From Clostridia bacterium (GTDB lineage: Bacteria; Bacillota; Clostridia; Lutisporales; Lutisporaceae): a DNA stretch of 64,000 bases. The stretch covers positions 124,001 to 188,000 of the forward strand of contig DASPIR010000023.1 of NCBI GenBank assembly GCA_035628995.1, read 5' to 3'. Both the position numbers and the translations under genes were made by a program. Numbering within the stretch: the stretch's first letter is position 1; every line of letters begins with the position of its first letter. Below are positions 5,776 to 63,890 of the stretch, piece by piece. The notes below the pieces were generated by a model. The model worked only from the letters and a program-made list of their open reading frames with translations. It was not told the origin of the DNA and did no database searches.

Positions 5776-5890
5776 ACTAAGGGACGGGAACCACGGAACA
5801 CACGGATGTTTCACGGATTTACACGGCATGTAATATATTTAGATTCCGTGAATTCAGTGGATTTCAGTGTTTTCAGTGGTACACGTAACT
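5776..5890 (+). repeat. Interspersed palindromic repeat, family R1, copy 1
   Basis: A long imperfect inverted repeat. The left arm has GGGAACCACGGAACACACGG and then TTCACGGATTTACACGG; the right arm has CCGTGAATTCAGTGG, ATTTCAGTG and TTTTCAGTGGTACACG, which is the reverse complement with changes, around an A/T-rich centre. Further copies lie at 9699-9812 and 63705-63890. Beyond the right arm, GGAATACCC and a GC-rich stretch (CACGAGCCACGTGGCACG, about 5918-5935) resemble the flank of copy 2 read in the opposite sense. The 62-codon open frame across it is repeat sequence, not a gene. Confidence 0.85.
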
Positions 5891-6065
5891 TTACAAGTAA
5901 GGAATACCCAAGCATTGCACGAGCCACGTGGCACGAAGCAGGACCTCAGAGGAAAACATAAAAGCGCATTATGCGTATATCATTTCGCAAAATTTATAAC
6001 AATTACTATAGAAGGTTTTTTGCGATTAATATATTAATAATAAAACACATGGAGGGATATGATTA

Positions 6066-6623
6066 ATGTTATCAGCTGGTGAATTTAGAAAAGGATTAAC
6101 ATTTGAAATGGATGGAAATATTTATACAATTATAGATTTTCAGCATGTTAAGCCAGGCAAGGGTGCCGCTTTTGTAAGAACAAAGATAAAAAACATAATT
6201 TCAGGGTCAGTTGTTGAAAGAACCTTCAATCCGTCAGATAAATATCCAAAAGCTCACATTGAAAGGAAAGCCATGCAGTTTTTATATGAAGACGGCGGCT
6301 TGTATTACTTTATGGACAATGAAAGTTATGAGCAAATACCTCTCAATCACGAGCAGGTTGAGGATGCTATTATGTATCTGAAGCCTAATGACATAGCTAA
6401 TATCAAATTCTATAAGGGTGAAGCTTTTTCCGTAGAGCCTGAAAACTTTGTAGAAATGGAAATAACTCATACTGAGCCGGGTTTCAAAGGCGATACCAGC
6501 ACTGGTGCTACCAAACCCGCCACTGTTGAAACCGGCGCAACTGTCAATGTTCCTTTGTTTATCAACATAGGTGATAAAATTAGGATAGATACAAGAACCG
6601 GAGAATACATGGAAAGAGTGTAA
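6066..6623 (+). CDS. efp: Translation elongation factor P
   Basis: 185 residues, the normal length. The N-terminal KOW-like domain carries the loop [12 protein letters not shown] with Lys32 at the tip, the residue modified in many bacteria. The C-terminal OB domain ends with the family signature [20 protein letters not shown] binds between the P and E sites of the ribosome and relieves stalling at polyproline. The ATG at 6066 follows the ribosome-binding site GGAGGG. It is separated from the upstream peptidase gene by a repeat element. Confidence 0.98.
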
Positions 6624-8909: not shown

Positions 8910-9002
8910 ATGTCCCTTCCAGGCATAGCCTGTCAGCGATGAAGCTATGCTTCATCGAATGGACAAAATTAATGTATGTTTTAATAAATCAAAACTAGGA
9001 GG
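8910..9002 (+). repeat. Structured leader element R2, copy A (before spoIIIAC)
   Basis: A 93-bp element nearly matched by 13577-13668. Both begin ATGTCCCTTCCAGGCATAGC, continue CTGTCAGCGATGA, and end AAAACTAGGAGG, which is the ribosome-binding site of the gene downstream. Two hairpins are visible: AGGC-ATA-GCCT and CGATGAAGC-TAT-GCTTCATCG (9 bp). The outer TGTCC can pair with GGACA. It may be a mobile palindromic repeat or a cis-acting RNA. Confidence 0.8.
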
Positions 9003-9600: not shown

Positions 9601-9698
9601 CTATGAGTTTAGCACTAAACATATTACATATTAATAGAAGAATATGTCAGATGCAAGATACGAGATTCGAGGAAAGCTCAGGTATTCCTTATGGGTTA

Positions 9699-9812
9699 AG
9701 GTACGATAACCACGGAACACACGGATGTTTCACGGAACCACACGGCTGGTTTTTATTTTTCCTACCGTGAATTCAGTGGATTTCAGTGTCTTCTGTGTTA
9801 CCCGTTTCCTTT
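9699..9812 (+). repeat. Interspersed palindromic repeat, family R1, copy 2 (inside spoIIIA operon)
   Basis: Left arm ATAACCACGGAACACACGG and TTTCACGGAACCACACGG; right arm CCGTGAATTCAGTGGATT, TCAGTGTCTTCTGTGTTACC. The upstream flank (about 9651-9690: GCAAGATACGAGATTCGAGG and GGTATTCCTTA) matches the flank of copy 1 in inverse orientation. The rest of the 9601-9838 spacer shows no gene. The element separates spoIIIAD from spoIIIAE and would form a large hairpin in the operon mRNA. Confidence 0.85.
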
Positions 9813-13576: not shown

Positions 13577-13668
13577 ATGTCCCTTCCAGGCATAGCCTGT
13601 CAGCGATGAGGCTGCTCTTCATCGACTGAACTAAATAAGGGATGTTTTACTTAAGTAAAACTAGGAGG
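13577..13668 (+). repeat. Structured leader element R2, copy B (before nusB)
   Basis: A 92-bp relative of 8910-9002. It shares the first 33 bases almost exactly, then has GGCTGC in the second hairpin loop, and ends with AAAACTAGGAGG, the nusB ribosome-binding site. The outer pairing differs: TCCCTT pairs with AAGGGA here, whereas copy A pairs TGTCC with GGACA. Confidence 0.8.
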
Positions 13669-63704: not shown

Positions 63705-63890
63705 AAGGGACGGAAACCACTGAAGACACGGATGTTGCACGGATTTACACGGAAAGTTTATAATTGTTTTAGATAATAACGAGGTTATCGATATACGCGG
63801 TTTTATCGATGGCCTTTTTATTTCTATATTAATAATCCCGCCGTGTATTCAGTGAATTTCAGTGTGTTCCGTGGTTTTCGTACCCTTTTC
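63705..63890 (+). repeat. Interspersed palindromic repeat, family R1, copy 3
   Basis: The best-formed copy. Left arm AAAGGGACGGAAACCACTG, AAGACACGGATG and GATTTACACGG; right arm CCGTGTATTCAGTGAATT, TCAGTGTGTTCCGTGG and TTTTCGTACCCTTTT. The loop is longer than in the other copies (about 90 bases). It begins next to the cheR stop and ends before the tRNA terminator. Confidence 0.85.

Follow-up and report, generated by a model that had tools for sequence, protein, structure and literature searches.

The 64-kb window analysed here (the whole stretch of 64,000 nucleotides, from a Clostridia bacterium) carries the same short sequence before two genes, spoIIIAC and nusB, and the question is whether this is a regulatory leader of those genes or a mobile sequence that has come to lie twice at a ribosome-binding site. 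A preliminary description of the locus took it for a structured leader that itself supplies the Shine-Dalgarno sequence (SD), with copies at 8910-9002 and 13577-13668, both spans including the SD. Both copies are present there, and the common blocks, the two hairpins and the TAGGAGG end are found in the sequence as described (Table 1).

Table 1. Positions in the window of the two element copies, their parts and the genes behind them.
Feature	Position	Strand	Remarks
Element copy A	8910..8997	+	between spoIIIAB and spoIIIAC; 88 nt, 3' end ...AAAACTA
Copy A, P1 5' strand TGTCC	8911..8915	+	partner GGACA 8961-8965; covaries across copies
Copy A, conserved CTTCC at P1-P2 joint	8916..8920	+	complementary to SD GGAGG; alignments, RNAalifold
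Copy A, P2 hairpin CAGGC-ATA-GCCTG	8920..8932	+	folding, covariation
Copy A, P3 hairpin CGATGAAGC-TAT-GCTTCATCG	8937..8957	+	two-sided changes in 7/9 pairs among copies
Copy A, P1 3' strand GGACA	8961..8965	+	covariation
Copy A, P4 hairpin GTTTTAATAAATCAAAAC	8978..8995	+	adjoins SD; other hairpins replace the P4 module in some copies
spoIIIAC SD GGAGG	8998..9002	+	host sequence and probable insertion target, outside element; G005, without element, has AAGGAGGCAATCAT-ATG
spoIIIAC CDS, 64 aa	9010..9204	+	PF06686, E 4.3e-21
Element copy B, 87 nt	13577..13663	+	5' of nusB; empty sites in G001, G003, G005
Copy B, P4 hairpin GTTTTACTTAAGTAAAAC	13644..13661	+	sequence, folding
nusB SD GGAGG	13664..13668	+	native; element-free congeners have ACATAGGAGG
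nusB CDS, 148 aa	13673..14119	+	PF01029, E 2.7e-39

Copies A and B are identical over their first 33 nt, and a 20-mer common to them is matched exactly at two places in the window (expected, 0.01). Compared with dinucleotide shuffles, both copies fold better (z = -2.8 for copy A and -3.6 for copy B). Read from the sequence, the ends of the element, ATGTCC... and ...AAAACTA, are not mutual inverted repeats, so that terminal inverted repeats are absent. The identical start might suggest that copy B arose from copy A, together with its surroundings, by local or segmental duplication; the similarity stops at the element borders, however, and 14 further copies lie on other contigs and at a distance, so this origin can be practically dismissed.

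The window's own genome (G000) is a draft assembly of 3.65 Mb in 35 contigs. A DNA search of it with copy A returned 13 matches at E < 1e-6, and two covariance models, R1 for the whole element and R2 for the core only, together yielded 16 copies with a recognisable core, plus four 3' remnants. The element is thus repeated, as first described, but ‘twice-occurring’ understated its number. One further R2 match, C23:416 (E 0.015), is the terminator behind a 5S rRNA gene and was rejected as false. In its simple form the element is non-coding and 87-95 nt long. The genome copies are 72-85% identical to copy A, whereas the intergenic flanks of congeners barely align.

Every one of the 16 core copies in the draft assembly lies directly 5' of a start codon, in sense orientation and abutting an SD, which is GGAGG in 11 cases, GGGGG or longer in four and GGAG in one, with 4-9 nt between SD and start codon. 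GGRGG is the constant 3' flank of the element in this genome, and similarity between copies ends at GGAGG. Three of the four 3' remnants are again placed directly at an SD, 5' of a gene for a penicillin-binding protein and two others. The preliminary description had held that the element always sits at a gene start, and that a covariance-model search of the genome and its relatives would argue against this by finding random placement or no further copies. That search revealed further copies, and in the window genome, searched throughout, the core copies lie only 5' of genes.

The genes behind the 16 copies, named from Pfam or, where Pfam gave no match, from a reading of the translation, are functionally unrelated. 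They comprise spoIIIAC, nusB, the genes for a 237-aa protein without a Pfam match and for a PcsB-type peptidoglycan hydrolase, glycogen phosphorylase (glgP), aspS, the gene for a PspC-domain protein (pspC), flgN, tgt, ypeB and lipA, together with genes for a DUF3006 protein, a helicase, an nrdG-like radical SAM protein, a nitroreductase-like protein and a DnaD/DnaB_2 protein.

The element folds into a three-way junction of P1, P2 and P3, followed by a AAATTAANGAA linker and the 3' hairpin P4. Covariation was assessed in a 22-copy alignment (A5), in which 90.2% of the P1-P3 cells are paired, against 27-35% with the partner slid by one to three columns, and two-sided changes occur in 12 of the 20 pairs (44 cells against 13.4 in shuffles); these counts overstate independence, because the sequences were hand-trimmed, some copies served to draw the structure and several are related to one another, but the contrast is still large. 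P1 appears as TGTCC/GGACA, GCCC/GGGC, ATCC/GGAT and other covariants across copies; conservation lies in the joining strands (CTTCC, TCAGC and GAAT), the stems being variable. The last C of the CTTCC in copy A doubles as the closing base of P2. The view that the element is structured therefore holds, from both the shuffles and the covariation of P1-P3. The outer stem of the preliminary description also exists, although it is better drawn as the covarying TGTCC (8911-8915) with GGACA (8961-8965), that is, P1.

An alternative outer pairing is possible, of CCTTC with the SD GGAGG; it is the one preferred by RNAalifold, is compatible with nearly all copies and is mutually exclusive with part of P1. 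When ten leaders were folded with 40 nt of coding sequence, the SD was predicted to pair with the first 15 nt to an extent ranging from 0 to 1.0. Predicted masking was near complete in five of them (pcsB, unk, flgN, lipA and nusB) and absent in three to four, which indicates that SD masking is not a uniform property of the copies.

To which partner the SD belongs can be read from relatives. Congeners, represented by draft genomes that are 70-97% complete, were searched with the concatenated downstream proteins, and the DNA upstream of the orthologues was then read. Clean empty sites were found at lipA, tgt, nusB, spoIIIAC, the 237-aa gene, nrdG and others, the spoIIIAC site being empty in four congeners (G001, G003, G004 and G005), and deleting the element from the window genome in silico restores the alignment with element-free relatives. 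At lipA the relatives read ...TTATTC|TTGGGGGTGAAG and the window genome ...TTATAC|element|GGGGGTGAATTC; at tgt, ...TTAT|GGAGGTATATATAG and ...TTAT|element|GGAGGTAAATTCAG; and at the 237-aa gene, ...TCAT|GGCGGGG and ...CCAT|element|GGGGGGG. At the last two loci the junction ...AT|GG is identical with or without the element. No target-site duplication is seen at the tgt, lipA and 237-aa junctions; the nrdG junction is not clean, TAGG remaining to the left of that copy.

Because element-free orthologues have GGRGG, and removal of the element restores the alignment, the motif belongs to the host gene. The claim that the element supplies or carries the SD thus fails: orthologues without it already have one, including the unusual GGGGG of lipA and the GGGGGGG of the 237-aa gene. 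As judged from these alignments, the element inserts before a native SD, and at most the TA preceding GGRGG would be its own.

Occupancy among the congeners is patchy. At spoIIIAC, nusB, tgt, lipA, glgP, flgN and the 237-aa gene, no other congener whose orthologue was read has the element, which is confined there to the window genome. It is shared with G004 at nrdG and with G002 at the dnaD-like gene, and at pspC it occurs in G000, G001, G003 and G005, G002 having a remnant. Copies from two species at the dnaD-like and pspC loci both retain their stems despite divergence; P3 and P1 are gone from the pspC copies of G001 and G003. In small protein trees G000 groups with G005 and the other congeners group together (the dnaD tree being weakly supported). 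Together, this occupancy and these trees require several independent gains or precise losses.

G001 and G003 hold further copies in the promoter region of rRNA operons, in the stretch that separates the operon from the end of gyrA (or of another gene). These adjoin a promoter-like TTGACG...TAAGAT, some are 122-bp tandem repeats, and they do not lie at an SD, which makes them the exception to the SD rule. The rRNA-upstream copies of these two congeners lie at L076 1133-1598, L075 24-365, L081 1501-1602 and L089 1501-1600; the tandem arrays (~122 bp) repeat the -35-like TTGACG, with the -10-like TAAGAT only behind the last repeat.

The 3' hairpin is modular. P4 is usually short (GTTTTAATAAATTAAAAC), but the ypeB, nrdG and G004 copies carry instead the hairpin of fam2, another repeat family (GTTTCGCAC...GTGCGAAAC). 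Ten of 22 genomes of the bacterial family contain the fam2 3' half, combined with differing 5' halves. At aspS (L006) a third type is inserted between element and SD, and at L015/L045 fam2 is inserted between an element remnant and the SD. At these nested sites it is the newest arrival that adjoins the SD, which marks the 3' flank as the likely target. Fam2 serves as a control here: of its 11 full copies in the genome only about 3 adjoin an SD, and copies of it occupy various intergenic places; SD adjacency is therefore not general for repeats in the window genome.

Two side observations concern these modules. The fam2 3' hairpin is also joined to a different 5' hairpin module of ~90 nt, TATGTCGTGAAAA...TTTTCACGACATATGAAT, at L202, L219, L225 and L229 (G006), L212 (G019), L213 (G004) and L206 (G012), which suggests that two-hairpin elements form a modular superfamily in this bacterial family. 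At aspS (G000 C23:37824-38010, L006) the insertion removed the stop codon beside the SD, as a result of which the upstream gene appears extended by a few codons into the element.

The element was found only in the genus. With the core model, convincing matches among 245 genomes of the class are confined to the genus, and the three weak matches outside it, near E 0.002, are in other families. An exact-pattern search of 84,980 species genomes gave one true match, in the metagenome-assembled genome JAKPKE010000065.1, where the stretch is the same as the G005 copy; L071, whose sequence is unlike the element, and L068, L070 and L072, from unrelated phyla, were set aside as chance-like. Viral contigs held no element. 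The locus had not been recognised as a known riboswitch, and Rfam likewise gave no match at gathering score for the window, nor at E values up to 1 for five element loci. The core-only search matched the short form alone throughout the genome and found no autonomous copy that encloses a transposase, and around lone 3' hairpins in G005 we recognised by eye ordinary genes and no transposase. The two Y1 (HUH-type) transposases of the genome were considered as partners and rejected, since they have their own, different flanking palindromes and ends unlike those of the element. These RAYT-like genes lie at G000 C30:165915-166199 (L199) and C8:73673-74005 (L198), with the palindromes GTAGGGGCGAACA.TGTTCGCCC and GGGACAAGGTACCTGTCCC; one of these palindrome families also has members within two coding sequences, those of its own transposase gene and of a neighbour.

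We consider it likely that the sequence is a small non-autonomous mobile element, structured as a single strand, that inserts one-way and exactly 5' of the GGRGG SD core of protein-coding genes. It would have spread recently within the genus, mobilised in trans by some enzyme that plausibly acts on the folded single strand. The target may be chosen by pairing of the element's CCTTCC with GGAGG, as their complementarity would allow, and CTTCC at 8916..8920 is a candidate guide or anti-SD. That CCTTCC guides the element to GGRGG, in mRNA or in single-stranded DNA, so that transposition is aimed at the ribosome-binding site itself, is a tentative and rather doubtful proposal, and the same complementarity could equally serve regulation. 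Where CCUUC pairs with the SD, the predicted masking might lower translation of the downstream gene as a side effect. The SD being host sequence, translation remains possible, and copies are thus tolerated inside operons; the suggestion of a ‘mobile palindrome tolerated there’ came close to this explanation.

A true cis-regulatory RNA, be it a riboswitch not yet recognised or a leader that binds protein, in which CCUUCC sequesters the SD in competition with the P1 fold and which spread because it was useful, would account for the riboswitch-like conserved junction strands and covarying stems, for a CCTTC/GGAGG pairing open to nearly all copies and near complete in half of the folded leaders, and for the stems kept in two species at the dnaD-like and pspC loci. 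We regard it as unlikely, however: the downstream genes have no common pathway and form no coherent conserved regulon, their orthologues being empty; occupancy is patchy without any sign of lost control; predicted masking is absent from 3-4 of the 10 leaders; the pspC copies of G001 and G003 do without P3 and P1; copies also stand in an rRNA promoter region; and Rfam is silent even at E 1. Alternatively, there might be little target choice at insertion, with selection leaving only sense copies just 5' of the SD. Small mobile elements in bacteria are mostly intergenic, and the scatter of fam2 over intergenic places fits such a process, yet the purging of harmful insertions cannot explain the exact abutment on GGRGG with 16 of 16 copies in sense, and fam2 in the same genome sits away from SDs; we judge this quite improbable.

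Compared with known systems, the element shares with the reviewed MITE-like repeats RUP, ERIC, Correia and bcr-type (PMC2229807) a length below 200 bp, the lack of an ORF, multiple copies, hairpin formation, mostly intergenic placement and pairs of empty and filled sites, but differs in lacking clear terminal inverted repeats, in showing no target-site duplication at its clean junctions, in a position fixed at the SD in a single orientation, and in an internal three-way junction whose joining strands are conserved. The REP/REPIN elements that RAYT (TnpA-REP) transposases mobilise (PMC3116915, PMC2817692, PMC8266576) are likewise short, geneless and hairpin-forming, and RAYT-like Y1 proteins are encoded in the window genome; the element, however, is no GTAG/CGTC-tagged simple palindrome, and the REPs around the RAYT-like genes here (GTAGGGGCGAAC..., GGGACAAGGTACC...) are their own and unrelated to it.

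With IS200/IS605 elements such as IS608 and their non-autonomous derivatives it has in common subterminal hairpins, the lack of target duplication (at clean junctions) and a fixed target on one flank. In IS608, target choice relies on base pairing with a sequence inside the IS (PMC5934647), to which the CCTTCC/GGAGG of the element may be analogous, a resemblance in working that need not mean membership: neither a TnpA gene nor matching ends were found, and the constant flank is on the 3' side as written (5' on the other strand). Translational riboswitches and SD-sequestering leaders also lie directly 5' of the SD, with conserved joining strands, covarying stems and a possible anti-SD, but the element differs from them in its unrelated genes, patchy occupancy, a native SD that predates it and the absence of an Rfam match. 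From these sequence comparisons it would belong among the known small non-autonomous mobile elements, its target being what is unusual; a literature search, not exhaustive, found no described element with a preference for SDs.

If the element does target SDs, the commonest functional gene motif of bacteria becomes a safe landing site, and insertion gives almost any gene a foldable, potentially SD-masking leader. Unrelated genes could in this natural way come to share one structured 5' leader, and translational control elements might originate by this route. The congeners supply pairs of filled and empty sites for direct tests of both the effect on translation and the choice of target.

The window holds other repeats as well. 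One family, 109 nt long and 81-89% identical (AACCACGGAACACACGGATGTTTCACGG...CCGTGAATTCAGTGGATTTCAGTG), occurs at three intergenic places, 5778-5886, 9697-9805 and 63705-63757, and one copy opens a spurious ORF before a spoIIIAE-like gene. In the leader (5970-6060) of an elongation factor P-like gene at 6066, a hairpin ATTTCGCAAAA...TTTTTTGCGAT stands shortly before ATGGAGG and may be related to the fam2 3' hairpin.
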